Shown: piece by piece, positions 1-10,670 of the stretch
Numbering within the stretch: the first letter of the stretch is position 1
Layout: each line of letters starts with the position of its first letter
Assembly (NCBI GenBank): GCA_002687335.1
Contig: NYZY01000071.1
Location: 1 to 10,670 of the forward strand
Direction: 5' to 3'
Length of the DNA stretch: 10,670 nt
Source: Chloroflexota bacterium
Lineage (GTDB): Bacteria; Chloroflexota; Dehalococcoidia; UBA1151; UBA1328
Translations under genes and position numbers: made by a program
The notes under the pieces: generated by a model
The model's input: only the letters and a program-made list of their open reading frames with translations
The model's database searches: none
What the model was told of the DNA's origin: nothing

Positions 1-3000
1 AGTCAGTAGTTGGTTCGACAGAACTAGTATCTGGTGTATGGTACCATGTTGCAGCGACGTATAGTTCGACTACTGATAGAATAAGGGTTCATCTTAATGA
101 TTCTGTAGATGGTACTACTACACTTTCTAGTAGTTATACTATGTCGAATCGCAATTGCTGTGATAATTGGATAGGTTACGACAATTACTGGGGAACGAGC
201 TATACTTTTGACGGGATAATAGATGAAGTTCGTGTATCTAGTGTTGAGCGAACAGATTTTAACCATACAAAATCTCACACCATTTGGTCCTGGAGCCATC
301 CGGCCGTTGTCAAATTGATAGTCAATGAAGGGCCTGAGATAGTATCTACAACGATCTTGCCCACCGTGATTCAACAATGGGGTTCCTCGGGTATTACTTA
401 TTCTATCACGAGTAATACGGTTGGGTATTGGACTTTTGACGAAGGAACGGGAAACAAGGGCTACGACCTATCCTACCGAGGGGGCTATTTCGCGAAGACA
501 GGTGGTTCATGGGTCGATGGGCGTACAGGCAAAGCAATCGAACTTGATGGAACTGGTAGTGAGTATCTAGGACTGAGTGAATATGCCTACAAGGGTGATT
601 CTTTCACAGAATTTACAGCTGAATTCTGGATATATTTAGATTCACATGATACGTCTAGCAGCAGAAAGATTTTCAAGTCCTATAGTCCTGAGATAGCCCT
701 TGAAACCACCACCGATAATGGTTTCTATATTTATATCCCTCAGAGAAGAGTTAGCGATGGTGGCTGTTGTTACACCCAATCGTTTTATCTCGGAAGTACA
801 TCAGATATTACGGCGCTTGAAGATTCTTGGCATCATATTGCTCTAACATATGACGGTATAGATGACAAGATTGAAATGTATATAGATTCAGTTCTTTTGG
901 GTTCTCATACATGGAGTTATTCAGATGATATGAAATTGAAAATGGATAGTTGTTGCGAGTCAAGCAGCATCAATTTTGACGGAATAGTCGATGATATCCG
1001 TTTTTCCAATAAGGTATTGTCAACCAGCGAATTTATCATAGGTTCTACAAATACTGCCAATATCAGTTTTAGTTCTGTTGCCACTGACAGTGATGGATAT
1101 ATCGCTAATTATACCTGGAAATCTGATGTCGACGGTGATATTGGTTATCTCTCGTCAATATCCTTGAACGCCACAAAAGAATTCACTCCAGGTTATCATA
1201 ACATAACTCTGGTAGTCAAGGATAATGATGGCTATACGGTTACTAGCTCAGCCACGATGATACGTATCAAGGCAATTCCAGTGGTCAATATAACTGCGGT
1301 AACTCCCAATGCAGCCCCGACGGGTACATCTGTAAGTTTCACTGCCACGGCAACAGACAATGATGGTTCCATCTCGGCTTATCAATGGCGTTCGGACCTG
1401 GACGGCCTGATCAGTACCAGCAAGGATTTTTCCACTACCACTTTGTCAGCAGGCTACCACAACATAACTTTCAGGGTCAAGGATGTGGATGGTTTCTGGT
1501 CGTTCAGGGATTATGAGCATGTTCTCGTGACTGGTTTGAGTAAAACTCCCGACTTCGGCGTTCAGGGTTCAGGATTCTACGATTTTTATTATTTATACTC
1601 TCGAGAAATTACGCTCTCATCTCCAACTTCAATAGATAATACTACGATTAAGATAACTCTCGATAATTCTTCATTTGATTATCAATACGTTAATCTACTA
1701 GGTAAAGATATAAGATTTTTTGATTCGGAATTAAAGACAAAGTTTAGCTATTACATAGATGAATGGGATTATAATGGAACCTCAGAAATTTGGGTTAGAA
1801 TTCCTGATAGTGGAACTTCTAAATTTAATTTAGTTTATGGTAATAATTTTGTTGATTCAGAAAGCAATGCTACCAATACTTTCGAATTTTTCGATGATTT
1901 TGATGATGGTTCTTTGGACTCGACTTTATGGGAAGGAGATACGAATGGATTTACAGAATGTAACGGATATCTCTTTGCAGGTACGTCCTGTAATTATTAT
2001 GGAAGGAACGGCTATCGTCTAACCAGTATAAAGGAGTGGACTGGAAGTTATGTAATGGAAGTTAAGGTGTACATAGACTATACCAATTGGGGTGGTTTTC
2101 AGGCAGCAGGATGGCATGAGAGTACTTCAGACGGTATTGGTGCTGGCTTTTATTCTTACGAGGATTATTATGCAGTACAGGATGATGGTAGTACCAATGA
2201 ATATTATGATAACTATAACGATGATTGGGTAATCCTAACTTTAACTGCCAATGGGGCTTCTTCTAAGGCTTCATACTACAATGTGGCTGACAACTCATAT
2301 TATAATTTTTCAATCAACAATGGAGGATTAAGCGACGAGGTCATAGCTCTAGGAAAATGGCAATGTGACTGTCGTATGAATGAGAGCTACCGGGCTTGGT
2401 GGGATCAAATTTCTGTAAGAAATTACGACCCCACTACTTACACAATTCAGATTGGAAATCAAACTAATGCCAGCGTAGTCAACAATAACATCACATTCAA
2501 AACAACAGTCACAGATTCTTATAGCTTGATATCAAATTACACTTGGATTTCAAGCAAAGATGGGTACATAGGCAATACATCTAATTTCGTGCTTCCCTCC
2601 ACGTCACTATCTCTCGGTAACCACACTATCTCTGTTCGGCTCAAGGATAGCAGTGGCAACTGGTCGGGTTGGTCTAATTTCACTTACAAGGTCTACGAGA
2701 CCCCTACTGTGGATTCATGGAACATATCGGCATGGCTGGATGACCAGGGGGACCGTGTATTCTTCAATGGTACGGGTGATGATACAGACGGCACCATCGT
2801 TGGTTACAGGTGGGAATCAAGTATTGACGGTATACTGAGTACCCAGGCTTCTTTCAATACAACGACCCTGTCTCCTGGAAACCATACAATCTATTTCCAG
2901 GTCAAGGACAATTCGACTCTTTGGTCTTCTAAAAGTGACAGATGGCTTTACATCAATGACCAGCCGGTTGCCACAATAGTTTCTGTTTCTCCAACAACAG

Positions 3001-6000
3001 CTTACACCAACGGGACCTTTGCACCTGACAAGCCCGAGATTGATTCCAACACGATTCACATGTGGCGTCTGGATGAAGGCTCAGGATCATCTACCAGTGA
3101 CGACGGTTCCTATGATTGGTCTGGGTCCATATATGGCCCTTCTTGGGTTACTGGAAAATCGGGACATGCCTTGGAATTTGATGGAGACAATGACTATGCT
3201 CGGTCTACCAGTTCTACCAGTTCACACAATGGTGAAGTTACTATCGAAGCCTGGATTTATTTTGATAGTCTGTTATCTGATGAAAAATGTATTTACAGTT
3301 GGGGCGCAGGCGTACTTATTTTTTGCATCAATTCTAGTGAAAAACTCTATCTTAAGGCATATAGTGGCAATGGTTATGGCTATGCCTATGCTTATGGTTC
3401 TACAGCTCTATCAAATAGTACATGGTATCACGTCGCAGCTACTTTTAGTGAAAGTAATAATGTGATGAAGGTTTATGTCAATGGCGTTGAGGATGGTACA
3501 ACCTCAATTCATTCATCATATGAATTATATCACTGGGGCGCGAATAGTTACATTAGTTATGATGCTTGGTGGGGTGGACGTTATTTTGAGGGCATTATTG
3601 ACGAAGTCAGGGTCTCTAACGTCTCGCGGACGGTATTCAATGCACCAGATAACATCACTTTCAATGGTTCGGCCACGGACCAGTCTGGATACGTAGCAGC
3701 CTATTCCTGGACATCATCCATAGACAATCTGTTGAGCACCCAAGCTAATTTCACAATTCATGAATCTAACCTGTCCTTCGGAAATCACACTATAACCTTC
3801 CGTGCCCAGGATGAGACAGGTGCGTGGTCAGTTTCCAGAACCACTAATATCACCGTAAGATCATTTCCGTATGCCAGGATAACATCGGTTGAACCGTGGT
3901 ATGTCAATATAGGTACACAGGTCAATTTCACAGCGACCGCCATAGCACCCGATTCTAATCTGACGGACTATCTATGGTGGTCCTCTATTGACGGCAATCT
4001 TAACACTAATCTTTCTTTCAACTCGACTAGTCTGAGTTACGGTAACCATACAATTCTGTTCAAGGCAAAGAATGAGAGAGGAGAATGGTCCCAGCCTTAC
4101 TTTGCCGATGACGGCGTCAGTTTCGTTCTGGTCAATGATATTCCCGTAGCTTCGATAACCGACATATCTCCAGATCCTGCTACAAAAGGTGAAGGTAGGG
4201 CACCACCTGTGGACCAGTACACTGTAGGTTATTGGCCATTCCGAGAAAGTACTGGAACAGAAACAATAGACGAGAGCGGCCAGAAAAATAATGCCACCCT
4301 CAAAGGTTCACAGTTTGAGAGTGGCGTCTGGGATTCCTCAGTTTATTTTGATGGCAGTTCCGATTATTTGTATGTGACTGAAGGCGATGCGCTTTCTGAC
4401 TTGGGTGGCGGTGATTTCACTTTGGAGGCGTGGATCTATCCAACCCGATCGATGACCAGCGGTACCCATTCCATAATTCGTAATGATGGAGACTACAATT
4501 TGTTTGTCTCCAATGGTTATCTCAAAGCTGAAGTCTGGTTTGATGGAGATCGTTACTGGGTAACGTCCACTGAAACCTATCTGTCTTCTACATATGAATG
4601 GTACCACATAGCGGCAATCTGGAATTCTGACGATGAGGAATGGACCCTCTATGTTAATGGAAATCAGCAGAATGAAAATAATGGCGAATCAGAAGAAACA
4701 GTTGATGACTATCCCCTCTGGGTTGGCAGTACCGACCGTTACAGCGGCCAGGCTTTCAAAGGAAAAATAGACGAGGTTCGAATATCCAGTATAGAACGCT
4801 CATTATCCTCATTGTTGTATTACACCACACTTCAATCCACGATTTCATTTCAAGGTTCAGGCAGTGATGGTGACGGGACTATCGAGGATTACAACTGGAA
4901 ATCCTCCATCGAAGGAGAGTTAAGTACTAGTGAGGACTTTAGTTTAACAGCAGCGAATTTCACCGTCGCTATTCATACTATCTCATACCGTGTTCAGGAT
5001 GACGATGGCGTATGGTCTCCTTGGGCGACAGAAACTTTGGACGTCAGGTCCTACCCTACGGCCCAGATTCTATCGATAAGCCCCAACTCAACCAGCGAAG
5101 GCCTGTTAGTTACCCTCAAAAGTAACGCCAGCGATCCAGACTCATCTGAGACTTTTGTAACATTTCGATGGTGGTCCTCAGTAGATGGATTCCTGGGTGA
5201 TTCCAGAAACTTAAGCTATTCAGCTTGGACCCCAGGAAATCATACAATCTTTTTGCAGGTAAAGGATAACCAAGGTTACTGGTCGATGCCAGTCTCTGGA
5301 GAATTATTCATCAATGATATACCCGCGGCCTCAATCGATTCGATAACGCCTGATCCTGCATACCACAACAATGCAACGTACACGACAGTGACCTTCAATG
5401 GAACTGTACTGGATGCTGATGGTTCAATTGCTAGCTACGAATGGCGTTCAAGCAAGGATGGCGAATTGAGTACCAGTTCTGACTTTGTAATTAATGTTAA
5501 TGAATTGAGTAATGGCAATCATACAATAACCTTCCGAGGAAAGGATGATTATGGTGCCTGGTCACCTAATGCAACCTATTATCTTGAGGTATTTGAGAAT
5601 CCTAATGCCACTATCGATTCAGTCTCAGCTACTTTTGTCAATCAATATGCCACGCTGTGGTTGAATGGAACGGGAACAGATAATGACGGTTCAGTTACGA
5701 ATTATACATGGACCTCATCCATAGAGGGTCTGATTGGACTATTTGAGGACATATCGATATCAACATTGACTCCCGGAAACCATACCATAACTTTCAAGGT
5801 CAGGGATAATTCGACACTTTGGTCGACTGGTGCAACCACTAGTGTTGAGATCAATGCTCGTCCAATTGTCAATTTGGAAGCTGGTATTCCAACCACAATC
5901 TATGGTTTCAGTGGGAGCACCTTAGTTCAGGGTCCTGATGATGATACACTTGCTTTCTGGCATTTGGACGAGACTACTGGAGATACGGCATATGATTCAA

Positions 6001-9000
6001 GTTCATCTGAAAAGCACGGAAGTCTGAAGAACAGTCCTTCTTGGCAAACCGGGTTATATGAAAATGGTTTGGAATTTGATGGTAGTGACGACTATGTCCA
6101 AGTCCCAGAGCTTCTGCCTGGTAATGTTTTTGATGTTGTAACCATAGAAGCTTGGATTAAACTAAAATCTAATGTTGATGAAGATGATGAATGGATAGTA
6201 TTTGCAAGCGGCAAGGATGGACTTCTGAAATTTGGGATTAATGACGATGAAAAACCCTTCATTTTTGTGGATGAAACCGACAACTTTGACTCCAAAACCG
6301 TAACATCAAGTCAAGCGCTGGTCCATGGATATTGGTATCATTTGGCTGGAATCTATGATTCTGATAATAACTTAATACAAATTTATCTTAATCATCAGAT
6401 GGTGGCTAATTCGTCAATAGAAACTAATTACGTTCTTGACAGGGCAGCTACGGCAAAGAACGCTATCGGGTCATCAACGGGAGGGAGTCAAGATTTCTTC
6501 TATGGAATTATTGATGAGCTTCGAATATCAGATATCAAGAGAAATACATCTGATATGGTTTCACGCAGTGATGCTTCTTATCTTTTGGCATTTGCAAGCG
6601 ATACTGATGACAACATCGAATCAATGAAATGGCGTTCTAGCATTGATGGTTTACTTAGCTCTTCAAATTGGCTTTTGTTGGAAGCCTCTGATCTTCAGGC
6701 CGGCAGTCACAACATTACTTTCCGTGCCAAGGATCCTCATGGCTTCTGGTCCGAGTACATTAATTTCACATTAAATGTCAAAATGTATCCTCGAGCTTCC
6801 ATAACTTCAATATCTCCCAACTCGACCAATGTTGGAACAACAATAGCATTTACAGCAACTAGCAGCGACTCAGACGGTAGTATTGTTGCCTACAAGTGGC
6901 GCTCATCCAAGGATGGCGCGTTGAGTACCGATGAGAACTTCACCAGTTCATCCTTGAGTGCTGGTTATCACAGGATTACGTATCAGGTTAAGGACAATGA
7001 AAATTTGTGGTCGGTTATTGAAACGTCAGGGATATTCTTGAATGAAATACCAACCGCATCCATTGGTTCGATAGAACCTCAAATTGTTTACAGAAACAAT
7101 CTGACGTATTACACAGCATCCTTCAACGGTAATGTCAGTGATAACGATGGTCAGATAACCAGTTATTATTGGAATTCGAGTAAGGATGGTGTATTGAGTA
7201 CATCTGGTAATTTCACCATCAATGTCAATACTTTGAGTCTGGGTAACCACACGATAACTTTCCAGGGTCGTGACAATTATACGACCTGGTCTCCGGCGGT
7301 GTCGACCTGGTTTGTAGTGAAGGCGTATCCGAATGCAACTATAACCAGCGTATCCCCACGTTCGACGGATGAGGGAGTGAGCGTATCCTTCAGCGGCAGT
7401 GGTTCTGATGAGGATGGATCCATCACAGGATATGAGTGGACATCAAGCAGAGACGGGTCATTGAGTACTAGTTCATCATTCAGTACCACACAGCTCTCTA
7501 CCGGCTTCCATAAGATTTACTTCAAGGTCAAGGATAACGATACTCTATGGTCGGTTACAAAAATCTCAAGCGTATTCATAAACGACATACCTGAGGCCTC
7601 GATAGATGCAGTCGGCTCGAATCCCGTCTACAAGAATAACCAGACAACCACTTCAGTTGCGTTTAATGGTTCAGGCGTAGACAGTGATGGTCAGATAACC
7701 CATTATTATTGGAATTCAAGTAAGAATGGCGTGCTAAGCACGTCGGGTAATTTTACTACAGCACTTAGTGGTCTGAGTGTTGGCAATCACACAATATATC
7801 TCCAGGTGAGAGATAATTTCACATCTTGGTCCCCCTCTGTTGAAACATGGTTAGTCGTCAAGGCCTATCCGAATGCCTCCATAGGTTCTGTCTCTCCCTC
7901 ATTCACTAACGAGACTGATGATGTAACCTTTTCTGGTACGGGATCTGATGAGGACGGAACAATCACTGGATATGAGTGGACATCGTCAATAGACGGACTG
8001 ATAGGTACACTTTCTGGATTCACACTGGACAATTTGAGTCCGGGGGATCACACGATTTACTTCAAGGTCAAGGACAATGATAGCCTGTGGTCGACTACAG
8101 ATAGTACTAATATTGTTGTTAACGGAAGACCTGTAGTTGAGATTATAGCTACAGTACCTTCTATAATCTTTGGATATAGCGGGAATGACACACTACCAGC
8201 TTCGGATACAGATACACTAGGTTATTGGCACACGGATGAGGACAGTGGTACGAGAGCCAATGATGCAAGTTCTAATTCACATCATGCAACTCTCAAGAAT
8301 GGTGCAGACTGGAGCTCTGGTTTGTTTGGAGGAGGTGTTGAATTAGATGGTGATAACGATTACATTCTAGTTCCAGATATGCTGGGTGGTTCTTCAGTCT
8401 TCACAGAAGCCACATTTGAGGGTTGGATTAAGCTGGATTCTTCAGTGTCTAATGGAGAGACTATGGTTGTCTTTTCAGGAGGGCAAGATGGTTTTGTAGA
8501 AATTGGAATTGATGACGCCCAATATCCTTACTTCAAGGTCAAATCAGGCTCTTTTGGATGGAAAGAAGTTACATCTAATATGGCTGTGGCACCAGGTGCC
8601 TGGTATCATATTGCTGCACAGTACAGTGAATCTGGCGATTTCATCAAAATTTACATCAACCGTCAATTGGAAGGCACGTATACCTTGCAGAGCAATTTTG
8701 TTCTAAGTAGGTCTCTGTCGGCTAAGAATTGCATAGGTGCTGGAACCTCCGGGTCCTCAATTTGTACAGAGGATAATTTCCAAGGTAGTGTAGACGAATT
8801 TAGAATATCCACCTCGATTAGATCAGTTACATCCTTCATTTCCTTGTCTGACACTACCTTCCTTTCTGCAACGGTGTTCGATTATGAGAATTCAATTACT
8901 GATATCGAATGGTCCTCTTCTATTGATGGAGCTATCAGCTATGATCAATCATTCTCAATCAACGCAACAACACTCTCACCCGGTAATCATACATTGACCT

Positions 9001-10670
9001 TCAGGGCTAAGGACAGTCATGATTTCTGGTCTTTCAATGCTACAGCTCCTTTGTACGTTAGGCACCATCCCAGATCATCGATAGAGTCCATAAGCCACAT
9101 TTCTACGGACGAGGATGTGCCAATTACCTTCACCGGAGACGCAAGCGATACAGATGGTTCCATCAGCAGCTATGAATGGTATTCTAGCAGAGATGGTGTA
9201 TTTGGAACCAATCTAAATACCACAACTGGTGACTTGTCTATAGGCTATCATGTAATATCTTTCAAAGTCAAAGATAATGATGATTTGTGGTCATTAACAG
9301 ATTATTCTTTCTTGTTTATTAATGGGATACCAACCGCCTCTATTGGTTCAATAGATCCTCAGACGGTTTACAGGAATAATTTGACATATTACACAGCATC
9401 CTTCTATGGTAATGTCAGCGATAATGATGGTAGTATTACGCACTATTATTGGAATTCGAGTAAAGATGGCGCCCTTAGTACATCAGGCAATTTCACCACT
9501 AATGTCAATACTTTGAGTCTAGGTAATCATACGATAACTTTCCAGGGTCGTGACAATTATACCACATGGTCCCCGACGGTATCGACCTGGATCGTAGTAA
9601 AGGCGTATCCGAATGCAACTATTACAGATCAATCATCGTATTCAATCAACTTTGGAGATTTCTTTTCATTAGATGGCAGCGGTTCTGACGAAGATGGCAC
9701 AGTCACGGCATATGAGTGGGTTTCCAGTCGTGACGGCCTGCTGAGTACAAATTCGAGCTTTAACAGCACATCCTTGTCAGTAGGCTTCCACAGGATTTAC
9801 TTCAAGGTCAAGGATAACGATACCTTGTGGTCCCGCCCAGTCATTACGCAATTATCGGTAAATGACATTCCCGTCTCTATTATTCATAGCATAACACCCC
9901 AGACAGCCTACAGAAACAATTTGACGCATTACAATGTTAGTTTCTCTGGTAGCTCCTACGACAGAGATGGTGAAATAACTAGCTATTATTGGAATTCGAG
10001 TAAGGATGGTGTATTGAGTACATTTGGAAATTTCACGGTTAATGTCAATCTTTTGAGTCTTGGTACTCACAACATAACATTCCAAGGATCTGATAATGGA
10101 ACGTCTTGGTCTCCAAAGGCATCAACCTGGCTTGTGGTGAAGGCGTATCCGAATGCAACTATAACGAGTATATCACCAAGGTCCACGGATGAGGGCACAA
10201 GTGTCTCCTTCAGTGGTAGTGGAGCTGATGAAGACGGCACTATCACAGGCTACGAATGGATGTCCAGTCAAGACGGATTGCTTAGTCGCAATTCGTCATT
10301 CAGTACCGCAGAACTCTCTACCGGTTTCCACAGGATTTATTTCAAGGTCAAGGATAACGACACTCTATGGTCGGTTACAAAGACCTCCAGTGTATTCATC
10401 AATGATATCTCGGTTGCATCTATTGGTTCGATAGAGCCTCAGACAGTTTACAGAAATAATCTGACCTATTACAGTTCCTCCTTCTATGGTAACGTCAGTG
10501 ATAATGATGGTAGTATTACCCACTATTATTGGAATTCGAGTAAGGATGGAACCCTGAGTACATCAGGCAATTTCACCATTAATGTCAATACTTTGAGTCT
10601 GGGTAACCACACGATAACCTTCCAGGGTCGTGACAATTACACAACTTGGTCTCCAACAGTATCGACCTGG
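1..10670 (+). CDS. Giant secreted/surface LamG and PKD-like repeat protein (internal fragment, both ends missing)
   Basis: This is a single open frame of 3,556 full codons from base 3; bases 1-2 finish an earlier codon. I translated all of it and found no stop or frameshift. Visible content, in order: the C-terminal half of a LamG domain, then PKD-like Ig-fold modules, five of which carry a complete LamG domain and one a DUF2341 plus concanavalin-like block. LamG hallmarks recur (GYWxFDE, EAWIYL, WYHVAATY, GxIDEVRIS), as do PKD-like ones (DxDGxI, EWxSSxDGxLS, GNHTIxFxVKDN, LWS). LamG and PKD-like domains typically occur in extracellular proteins that bind glycans or act as spacers. The many N-x-S/T sequons and the absence of cytosolic motifs agree with an exported protein. 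Adhesion or particle binding is inference. No catalytic domain, membrane segment, signal peptide or anchor is visible, so the export route and attachment cannot be judged. The gene is certain; its precise role is not. Confidence 0.96.
3..254 (+). other. LamG-1 domain, C-terminal half only (cut by window edge)
   Basis: Residues 1-84 are the second half of a LamG / concanavalin A-like jelly-roll of the Laminin_G_3 type. The segment WYHVAATY (residues 13-20), the following strand (RIRVHLND, the usual x-x-Y-V-N-G position) and the closing FDGIIDEVRVS (69-79) are the family's most recognisable C-terminal elements. A vicinal Cys-Cys pair lies at residues 52-53. The N-terminal half is upstream of the window. 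LamG domains often bind sugars or proteins, sometimes with calcium; the ligand here cannot be read from the sequence. Confidence 0.85.
255..332 (+). other. Shortened junction where a PKD-like core and a type I unit would be expected
   Basis: After every other insert in this protein the chain completes a PKD-like core and then a full type I unit before the next X position. Here LamG-1 is followed by only about 26 residues (85-110). They contain SHTIWSWSHPAVV and then LIVNEGP, which resembles the usual type I exit (x-I-N-D-I-P). The HTI and WS elements of a PKD-like unit are present, but the DxDG and WxSSxDG elements are missing, as if the stretch had been deleted down to its last strands. It could instead be an unrelated linker. 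Confidence 0.5.
333..1277 (+). other. PKD-like unit with inserted LamG-2 (X position)
   Basis: This unit covers residues 111-425 (315 residues). It opens with a weak first strand (PEIVSTTILP), then carries a complete LamG domain at about residues 139-336 (bases 417-1010). LamG hallmarks are GYWTFDEGTG (141-150), ELDG, FTAEFWIYLD, WHHIALTYDG (276-285) and FDGIVDDIRFS (325-335). The PKD-like body then resumes with DSDGYI, TWKSDVDG, PGYHNITLVVKDNDG and ends before PVVNI. The LamG carries two Cys-Cys pairs, at residues 255-256 and 317-318, probably disulfide-forming if the protein is exported. A single type I unit follows. Confidence 0.82.
1278..1547 (+). repeat. PKD-like type I unit
   Basis: This unit covers residues 426-515 (90 residues, three more than the standard 87). 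It has a clear type I pattern: PVVNITAVTP, then VSFTATATDNDGSI, QWRSDLDG, LSAGYHNITFRVKDVDGFWS. The C-terminal strand is atypical (HVLVTGLSKT rather than the usual INDI), and it leads straight into the DUF2341-bearing unit. This is a spacer or binding Ig-fold; the acidic DNDG loop could bind calcium, which is inference. Confidence 0.8.
1548..2702 (+). other. PKD-like unit carrying a DUF2341 plus concanavalin-like insert (X position)
   Basis: This is the largest unit (residues 516-900, 385 residues). Residues about 533-618 match DUF2341: SREITLSS, then TTIKITLDNSSFDY, DIRFFDSELKT, IWVRIPDSGTSKFNLVYGN. The usual partner follows, a concanavalin-like jelly-roll from EFFDDFDDGSLDSTLW (628-643) to WWDQISVRNYD near residue 808. 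That last strand sits where other inserts have IDEVRIS. A PKD-like body then completes the unit (ITFKTTVTDS, TWISSKDG, SLGNHTISVRLKDSSGNWS). Four of this protein's 14 Cys are here, at residues 653, 663, 788 and 790. DUF2341 has no established biochemical role; it is typical of secreted proteins alongside LamG-like folds, which makes glycan binding plausible but unproven. Confidence 0.8.
2703..2963 (+). repeat. PKD-like type I unit, standard length
   Basis: Residues 901-987 form an 87-residue type I unit. Visible elements are VFFNGTGDDTDGTI, YRWESSIDGILSTQ, LSPGNHTIYFQVKDNSTLWS and the exit strand LYINDQ. The first strand is divergent (PTVDSWNISAW instead of P-x-A-x-I-x-S-I-x-P). The unit sits between the DUF2341-bearing unit and the LamG-3 unit. 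Confidence 0.82.
2964..3866 (+). other. PKD-like unit with inserted LamG-3 (X position)
   Basis: This unit covers residues 988-1288 (301 residues). The first PKD-like strand, PVATIVSVSPTTAY, is very clear. A linker and then LamG-3 follow at about residues 1018-1206 (bases 3054-3620), with MWRLDEGSG, ALEFDGDNDYA, VTIEAWIYFDS, WYHVAATFSE (1141-1150), KVYVNGVEDG and FEGIIDEVRVSN. The PKD-like body resumes with ITFNGSATDQSG, SWTSSIDNLLSTQ, FGNHTITFRAQDETGAWS. This is one of the cleanest examples of LamG splitting a PKD-like unit between its first and second strands. Cys are at residues 1096 and 1108, twelve apart. A glycine/tyrosine/alanine-rich hairpin (residues 1121-1133) may be a surface loop. 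Confidence 0.87.
3867..4142 (+). repeat. Divergent PKD-like type I unit without the DxDG loop
   Basis: This unit covers residues 1289-1380 (92 residues). The first strand PYARITSVEP, the VNFTATA strand, the LWWSSIDGNL motif and YGNHTILFKAKNERGEWS identify a type I unit. The usual acidic D-x-D-G-x-I loop is replaced by APDSNLTD, so any calcium site at that loop is probably lost. Five extra residues after the WS motif (YFADDG region) account for the length. It ends with LVNDI, the usual exit before an X-position unit. Confidence 0.8.
4143..5054 (+). other. PKD-like unit with inserted LamG-4 (X position)
   Basis: This unit covers residues 1381-1684 (304 residues). The first strand PVASITDISPDPA is followed by a proline/charged linker, and then LamG-4 at about residues 1408-1595 (bases 4224-4787). 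LamG-4 has VGYWPFRESTG, VYFDGSSDYLYV, FTLEAWIYP, LFVSNGYLKAEVWF, WYHIAAIW, WTLYVNGNQ, LWVGS and FKGKIDEVRIS. This is the most canonical LamG in the window, and it has no Cys. The PKD-like body continues with ISFQGSGSDGDGTI, NWKSSIEGELSTS and HTISYRVQDDDGVWS. The GNH turn seen in most units is replaced by VAIH. Confidence 0.87.
5055..5861 (+). repeat. Three PKD-like units in the order I-II-I
   Basis: Three units without insert occupy residues 1685-1953. Bases 5055-5321 are a divergent type I (89 residues; ASDPDSSETF in place of DxDGxI, then WWSSVDGFLG and PGNHTIFLQVKDNQGYWS). Bases 5322-5600 are the first plain type II in the window, with the full 93 residues (PAASIDSITPDPAYHNNATY, EWRSSKDGELSTS, NGNHTITFRGKDDYGAWS). 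It already has the longer first loop and the FRGKD variant typical of type II. Bases 5601-5861 are a type I of 87 residues (NGTGTDNDGSV, TWTSSIEG, PGNHTITFKVRDNSTLWS). The type II copy is less like the later ones and may be the older form. Confidence 0.82.
5862..6788 (+). other. PKD-like unit with inserted LamG-5 (X position)
   Basis: This unit covers residues 1954-2262 (309 residues). The first strand is degenerate (PIVNLEAGIPTTIYGFSG), and LamG-5 follows at about residues 1983-2176 (bases 5949-6530). LamG-5 has LAFWHLDETTG, LEFDGSDDYVQVPELLPG, VTIEAWIKL, YWYHLAGIYDS, IQIYLN, KNAIGSS and FYGIIDELRIS. It has no Cys. The trailing PKD-like body is shortened and altered (YLLAFASDTDDNIESMKW, RSSIDGLLSS, AGSHNITFRAKDPHGFWS). 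It resembles the LamG-6 unit closely in layout and wording (shared DTL-x-x-WH, GWIKL/AWIKL and the AKN-x-IG segment), so the two are probably duplicates of one cassette. Confidence 0.86.
6789..8129 (+). repeat. Five PKD-like units in the order I-II-I-II-I
   Basis: Residues 2263-2709 hold units at bases 6789-7049 (I, 87 residues), 7050-7328 (II, 93), 7329-7589 (I, 87), 7590-7868 (II, 93) and 7869-8129 (I, 87). Type I reads PNATITSVSP, GSGSDEDGSITGYEW, TSSRDGSLSTS, YFKVKDNDTLWS, FINDI. Type II reads PTASIGSIEPQ, VYRNNLTYY, SDNDGQITSYYW, NSSKDGVLSTSGNF, LGNHTITFQGRDNYTTWSP, VVKAY. Type II is six residues longer: four in the loop between the first two strands and two before the GNH turn. In type II the DGVLSTSGNF segment ends a YYWNSS strand rich in sequons. 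Unit lengths are exact, so these are recent or strongly constrained copies. Confidence 0.88.
7164..7203 (+). repeat. 40-base exact intragenic repeat, copy 1 (copy 2 at 9984-10023)
   Basis: These 40 bases, coding YYWNSSKDGVLST plus one base, are identical to bases 9984-10023, which lie 2,820 bases downstream in the same frame and at the same place in a type II unit. The bases immediately flanking the match differ. Shorter versions of the same stretch, sharing ggaattcgagtaa, occur at 7171, 9451, 9991 and 10531. Silent positions are conserved, which indicates recent duplication or gene conversion between units. Confidence 0.9.
8130..9068 (+). other. PKD-like unit with inserted LamG-6 (X position)
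   Basis: This unit covers residues 2710-3022 (313 residues). The first strand PVVEIIATVPSIIFGYSG resembles that of the LamG-5 unit. LamG-6 spans about residues 2739-2936 (bases 8217-8810), with LGYWHTDEDSG, VELDGDNDYILVPDMLGG, FEGWIKLDSS, WYHIAAQYSE, IKIYINRQLEG, KNCIGAG and FQGSVDEFRIS. Cys lie at residues 2910 and 2921, a close pair absent from LamG-5. The PKD-like body that follows is degenerate (LSATVFDYENSITDIEW instead of a DxDG loop, then SSSIDGAIS, PGNHTLTFRAKDSHDFWS). The unit takes the place of a type II within the I/II alternation. Confidence 0.86.
9069..10670 (+). repeat. Six PKD-like units I-II-I-II-I-II, last one cut by window edge
   Basis: Units lie at bases 9069-9329 (I, 87 residues), 9330-9608 (II, 93), 9609-9869 (I, 87), 9870-10148 (II, 93), 10149-10409 (I, 87) and 10410-10670 (II, 87 of an expected 93 residues). 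The last lacks only the VVKAY-type tail. The dimer period is exactly 540 bases (180 residues), seen in the starts 9330, 9870 and 10410. The PNATIT first strand, YFKVKDNDTLWS, NNLTYY and FQGRDNYTTWS elements are near-identical to those at 7050-7589. The final type I has SVAS in place of the usual IPxAS. The array evidently continues downstream. Confidence 0.88.

Follow-up and report, generated by a model that had tools for sequence, protein, structure and literature searches.

Five LamG domains (ConA-like, lectin-type) are very probably nested inside split PKD domains in the protein encoded by contig NYZY01000071.1 (assembly GCA_002687335.1, deposited as Chloroflexota bacterium; positions 1 to 10,670, the whole stretch analysed and hereafter called the window). 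This reading draws on the order of the pieces along the translated sequence, on the recurrence of that order in relatives, and on the predicted strand character of the first piece in two structural models. The window would code for a portion of a giant stalk protein, probably extracellular, from a marine archaeon near Candidatus (Ca.) Poseidoniales. The stalk is viewed as a chain of PKD domains, which have an immunoglobulin (Ig)-like fold and come in two types in alternation; roughly every second type II domain would be split. In a split domain strand A (with A') would be laid down first; the chain would then exit by the A-B loop, fold a whole LamG, and return to complete strands B-G, with which strand A would pair. 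Two linkers would fix LamG to the flank of the stalk, the chain entering at strand A and leaving at strand G of one and the same PKD. As the stalk would reach outward from the cell, the side-held LamGs may bind glycans and serve attachment. Because the insertion comes after A', tension could run from A/A' to G within the PKD, bypassing LamG, whereas an arrangement as beads on a string would load LamG fully. LamG would escape most of the load until A/A' detach from the sheet.

One open reading frame (ORF), 3,556 codons long and unclosed on either side, takes up the whole window, which includes neither end of the gene. Feature coordinates are window nucleotides, all on the forward strand; unit names, modelled stretches and strand ranges are residues of the ORF. 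Nested units 1 to 5 are named by their first residue (111, 988, 1381, 1954 and 2710, respectively). PKD domains alternate between type I and type II, which mostly measure 87 and 93 residues. The first-pass annotation had assigned 4 extra type II residues to the A-B loop, which the alignment confirms for plain units; another 2 sit in a later loop. Pfam matches in the window protein include 18 PKD stretches, 6 Laminin_G_3 (E 6.4e-98) and 1 DUF2341. The protein belongs to the PKD family by PF00801, which matches it as a whole at E 2.2e-50. Scanned singly, all five nested units and one plain type II unit (21.7) fall below the curated PKD cut-off of 23.5, above which one type I unit lies (25.0); split PKDs of this kind are hence overlooked by single-unit domain scans. 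LamG membership is direct: the PF13385 scores of the five nested units range from 49 to 87 bits, the curated cut-off being 27.6. An NCBIfam scan of the window gave one stray match, far under its cut-off.

In all five complete LamG units, alignment and our own profiles give the same order: a segment in the place of strand A, LamG, and PKD strands B-G. The units span 333-1277 (315 residues), 2964-3866 (301), 4143-5054 (304), 5862-6788 (309) and 8130-9068 (313), and exceed plain type II PKDs by 208-222 residues; these limits, lengths and order are those first proposed from the letters alone, and all hold. In unit 1 the segment (PEIVSTTILP...) lies at 333..389, the LamG payload with its linkers at 390..1052 (Pfam Laminin_G_3 E 9.7e-13; own profile 222.9 bits), and strands B-G at 1053..1277. 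Unit 2 is made by PVATIVSVSPTTAYTNGT (2964..3017), LamG with linkers (3018..3647) and strands B-G (3648..3866). Unit 3 features PVASITDISPDPATKGEG (4143..4196), LamG with linkers (4197..4835; Pfam E 1.2e-23) and strands B-G (4836..5054). The corresponding pieces are PIVNLEAGIPTTIYGFSG (5862..5915), LamG with linkers (5916..6572; Pfam E 5.8e-24) and strands B-G (6573..6788) in unit 4, and PVVEIIATVPSIIFGYSG (8130..8183), LamG with linkers (8184..8852) and strands B-G (8853..9068) in unit 5. Our PKD profile matches directly after LamG in each of the five, starting at model position 15 in unit 111 and 13 in unit 1381. The motif P-x-(A/V)-x-I is strict in three segments (units 988, 1381, 2710), and is replaced by PIVNL in unit 1954 and PEIVS in unit 111. 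Up to the insertion, the loop of unit 988 still resembles that of type II (SPTTAYTNGT, to be compared with TPQTAYRNN in plain unit 3290).

Two nested units, each with its type I neighbours, were modelled by AlphaFold2 (residues 901-1380 and 2623-3109). The underlying alignments comprise 11 and 12 sequences, and the only plain type II units in them belong to overhanging parts of ortholog fragments, beyond the stretch that was modelled. The models have a predicted local distance difference test score (pLDDT) of 84.1 and 90.4, and a predicted template modelling score of 0.56 and 0.75. In both, strands A and A' are predicted ahead of LamG (989-996 and 999-1002 in unit 988, 2711-2718 and 2721-2725 in unit 2710), in the same pattern as in the flanking plain PKDs, and strands B-G follow LamG. 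The first segment is a strand in blocks at pLDDT 83-91, and the next block falls to 55 and 66. A free linker had been set beforehand as the outcome contrary to nesting; the models predict a strand, followed by a less confident stretch. The fold-search matches listed for the modelled units are LamG matches. They include domain 4 of AbnA (5hon), a LamG-like arabinanase module which has the fold in common at 18-19% identity; a common fold does not imply a common ligand. Most other rows listed are binding domains of clostridial neurotoxins and of their partner proteins, and have only the jelly-roll fold in common. Fragments of the grappling hook protein GhpA lead the Foldseek list of the first model, at root-mean-square deviations of 32-62, and were discarded as unusable.

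Among relatives with a name, the closest found is Euryarchaeota archaeon UBA23 (one contig), which NCBI assigns to Ca. Poseidoniales. Unit 8130-9068 is 74% identical in UBA23, and three UBA23 units show the same order. Genomes of that order match this unit at E 0.001 in 38 of 292 cases, only UBA23 strongly and over the full length. A first search yielded 59 proteins, of which one (P0050, with one weak PKD match) had both LamG and PKD profiles. Second and third searches retrieved P0060, P0061 and P0062, which hold the whole unit in the same order, as well as fragments, some running from within or the start of LamG (P0063, P0064, P0072, P0180, P0181), others up to within LamG (P0066, P0067). The segment of unit 1954 is 89% identical in P0067, that of unit 2710 94% identical in P0060. 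P0183, also from these searches, is more distant; it is matched at E 1e-10 by 123 of 389 genomes of the phylum, and most of the matches listed cover PKD or LamG alone. Among the 30 loci fetched, five have both profiles in a single frame (L200, L204, L207, which is UBA23, L208 and L220).

Whether the first segment belongs to the PKD completed after LamG was assessed by two shuffle tests. The first, made with profiles from the window's own plain units and 50 shuffles, was clear in two of the five nested units (no shuffle reaches the score in 988 and 1381; 10 to 45 do in unit 111), and the claim is therefore not rested on it. The second used 17 units, 200 shuffles keeping composition, and a profile built on 277 complete PKDs, of which 261 come from relatives and 16 from the window. 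The segment beats all 200 shuffles in six units (window 988 and 1381, P0183, L200, L204, L208), in which replacing it with the post-segment linker or with the tail of LamG gives a lower score. Support is marginal in two further units, window 111 (2/200 shuffles reach the score) and P0061 (4/200). Within the window strand A is thus clear in two units, marginal in one, and unsupported in two (1954, 89/200; 2710, 61/200). P0183 measures 551 residues; 19 of them precede the segment PTAVIESVTPNPA, after which come LamG, strands B-G, one plain PKD and a hydrophobic stretch. Upstream of the segment there is a PKD in L200, and sequence without PKD match in L204 and L208, which resemble each other. As the segment is kept across three upstream contexts (PKD, no PKD match, 19-residue N-terminus), it seems to travel with the LamG-PKD, not with the preceding sequence. 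The same contexts make it unlikely that the segment packs on the preceding unit, the other outcome named beforehand as contrary to nesting. A five-unit profile matches solved PKD chains of KIAA0319L at E 0.003-0.007, only through the post-LamG part; four short KIAA0319L chains match only from chain residue 18-22 onward, consistent with a missing strand A. Two features of a split Ig-like domain are found. The Ig-like domain appears discontinuous by the order in 5/5 units and in relatives, by AlphaFold2 secondary structure in two units, and by clear sequence support in 6/17; the gap holds a separate folded domain, LamG by Pfam in 5/5 and by fold in the two modelled units.

The claim that LamG always sits between the first and second strands holds for the five complete units and for several relatives, but not for the whole theme, as three exceptions were found. 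A sixth LamG (3..281; own profile 102.1 bits, model positions 121-211) is cut at the window edge and has no strand B after it. It is followed by a remnant of about 17 residues resembling the last PKD strand, IWSWSHPAVVKLIVNEG (282..332), read by eye from the translation and without a profile match. Together (3-332) they may denote an insertion in the F-G loop, or a deletion of strands B-F; bearing on the former, P0205 carries a PKD closely followed by a LamG, and this PKD may be complete. The second exception is a different insert, in the sixth type II slot. A possible strand A (TPDFGVQGSG; 1530..1586) is assigned by position only, being negative in the profile tests, and is 84% identical in ortholog P0180. 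The insert (1587..2483) carries DUF2341 (Pfam E 1.2e-19); its remainder, for which no match was found here, is probably ConA-like, as in similar proteins. Strands B-G follow (2484..2702), matched by our PKD profile from position 12. DUF2341 and the further insert (window 1530-2702) are 61% identical in P0180. The third exception resides in G359, a genome of the same phylum group as UBA23. At locus L223 three LamGs out of three in a row are located, as read by eye, in the B-C loop of PKDs, between GDTVxFDxxGS (strand B) and IVSYEWDxxSDG (strand C), which is another way of nesting the two folds. By our count of slots, the inserts having a strand B after them all reside in type II slots (6 of 12; none in 11 type I slots). 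The figure for random placement (0.009) is to be read with caution because the units share ancestry and are not independent. Adjacent cysteine pairs, possibly vicinal disulfides, were observed in the LamGs of the N-terminal units (3-281 and 390-1052), and in those of P0180 and P0181.

Payload (LamG) and carrier (split PKD) were compared domain by domain with the window in 19 proteins and the UBA23 protein. Ten ortholog fragments with LamG and carrier were counted. P0065, P0070, P0071, P0073, P0074, P0075 and P0140 (no LamG by profile) were left out, as were P0183 and P0205 (distant) and the UBA23 protein, whose copies were set against wrong ones by a single whole-chain alignment. LamG and carrier are about equally conserved in eight of the ten. 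Identities of LamG and strands B-G are 83/83% in P0060; those of LamG and carrier 49/47% in P0061, 42/42% in P0062, 93/82% in P0063, 71/78% in P0064 and 67 (24 residues)/79% in P0072; those of LamG and strand A 73/83% in P0066 and 89/89% in P0067. In the other two, payloads differ markedly more than carriers. P0181 is 37% identical to unit 988 in LamG, 96% in strands B-G and 99% in the next unit, and identity jumps at the LamG/strand B border from 38% before to 98% over the 82 residues compared after. P0180 is 30% identical to unit 111 in LamG, 63% in strands B-G and 77% in the next unit. When the P0181 LamG is compared over the same 84 residues, identity amounts to 71% with the left-edge LamG of the window and to 43% with that of unit 988; divergence, however fast, would not by itself explain such a resemblance to a different LamG of the chain. 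In the carrier tree the pairs are as expected, unit 988 with P0181 (support 100/97) and unit 111 with P0180 (100/96). The best payload tree sets P0181 with the left-edge LamG (100/95), and P0180 with a LamG from outside the family (97/91). Outside LamGs in this tree number 22, taken in order of id among those scoring above 75, and P0066, P0067, P0072 and P0205 are not included; its row for P0183 kept some linker residues, and the bootstrap had not settled.

We tentatively propose that the split PKD functions as a socket, strand A and strands B-G being near-constant and LamG being swapped by recombination, in a way that the population would keep the stalk and vary the lectins. The payload difference on near-identical carriers comes from two of the ten comparisons, and simple descent is not rejected by approximately unbiased (AU) tests of the trees. 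Simple pairing of the payloads gave p-AU 0.38 (unit 988 with P0181) and 0.257 (unit 111 with P0180). One clade for the nested carriers of the family gave 0.168, and one clade for its payloads 0.242 (0.416 without 111 and P0180). Since none is rejected, neither several origins nor payload exchange is shown by the trees. The A-B loop had been suggested to be a preferred site for independent insertions; this does not follow from the data, a single origin followed by duplication being compatible with the AU figures for carriers and payloads. It is quite possible that one LamG insertion in a type II PKD was followed by block duplications only, with neither a preferred site nor exchange of payloads. 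The regular alternation of the PKD types, as well as the two one-clade tests, would fit such a history. Against it, the best trees split both carriers and payloads, the payload tree, on its starred branches, requires at least three changes of the nested label (in a set which includes other lineages), a different insert (DUF2341) occupies an equivalent slot, and the LamGs of G359 sit in another PKD loop.

That the P0181 mismatch is an assembly chimera rather than a real exchange is possible, though less likely than not. In favour of a chimera, P0181 is a single protein from a 1,508-base contig; against it, the jump in identity coincides with a domain border, and P0180 provides a second, milder mismatch. 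Moreover, the left-edge LamG and unit 988 of the window share no exact stretch above 9 bases, which is short for an assembly join, though sequences in the strain of P0181 may differ.

Several observations weigh against nesting, and would suit a trimmed PKD in an arrangement as beads on a string. The segment would then be a linker or would extend the C-terminus of the preceding unit, and the part after LamG would fold alone or borrow the end of LamG as strand A. In the 277-PKD test the segment gives no significant gain in 9 of the 17 units (window 1954 and 2710, three UBA23 units, P0060, P0062, L220, and the DUF2341 unit). The LamG tail outscores the segment in six of these nine (window 1954, UBA23 a and c, P0062, L220, and the DUF2341 unit). 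In units 988, 1954 and 2710 the PKD profile starts at position 3-4, overlapping the LamG tail. Pairing of strand A with the strands following LamG is not visible in the models, the fold-search rows shown are filled by LamG, so that the split PKD part is not addressed there, and the start of P0183 might be miscalled. Still, such a bead arrangement is improbable, as the segment occurs with almost nothing upstream (P0183) or after sequence without PKD match (L204, L208), is predicted as a confident strand followed by a less confident stretch, and at plain I-II junctions has counterparts of the same kind running straight into strand B.

The UBA23 ortholog (L199, 1482-3401, minus strand) features, after the stalk, a hydrophobic, membrane-spanning-like segment and a long in-frame tail with a Walker A-like motif (GEPGVGKS), for which Pfam and PADLOC give only weak P-loop matches. 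If this tail is a cytoplasmic nucleoside triphosphatase, as is possible, its union with a giant PKD-LamG stalk would suggest a receptor. RTX families were found neither among the Pfam matches of the window (E 10), which does not include the C-terminus, nor in the readable tail of the UBA23 ortholog (E 1), which has masked stretches. Judging from the sequence of this tail, the protein is not an RTX adhesin.

Nested LamGs may be compared with several known arrangements. In beta-integrins the I-like domain sits inside the Ig-like hybrid domain, i.e., an adhesion domain occupies a loop of an Ig fold; the domains are unrelated to those described here, and no metal-dependent switch is known for the window protein. 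PKD/LamG proteins built as beads on a string (PF00801, PF13385) share the same two folds, but in these LamG follows a complete PKD, as in L013 and L077. The first-pass annotation rightly drew this contrast; the idea itself is already in print, as split Ig-like domains are described for bacterial RTX adhesins in the text available of PMC10865825 and PMC12077191. In one crystal structure the chain also leaves after the first strand (PMC12077191), and in FrhA split Ig-like domains orient a binding domain outward, both its termini being on one side (PMC10865825). FrhA, MpIBP and AhLap resemble the window protein in having a sequence-discontinuous Ig-like stalk domain from which another domain buds; ligand binding and one-sided termini are described for the adhesins. 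As reported in these sources, the adhesins are Gram-negative, and carry sugar-binding, peptide-binding, beta-roll or vWFA payloads, three in AhLap. The window protein, in contrast, is archaeal, and has PKD carriers and LamG payloads; its partial chain contains five complete ones, in alternation with plain PKDs. Neither LamG nor archaea is mentioned in the main text of PMC12077191, and neither LamG nor PKD in the text available of PMC10865825. An archaeal LamG nested in a PKD was not found in the available text of the literature searched, including these two papers, PMC6461757, PMC11532034 and PMC13059738. The split-domain architecture of bacterial RTX adhesins is thus known; new are the archaeal LamG/PKD version, the five copies in one chain, and the payloads which differ between orthologs on near-identical carriers. 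If payloads are indeed exchanged on fixed carriers, abundant uncultured marine archaea may vary surface recognition through module swaps within one gene. Split-domain display would extend from bacterial adhesins to archaea with other carriers and other payloads, suggesting that one solution, an Ig fold holding a lectin by two linkers so that the lectin points sideways, has been found more than once.

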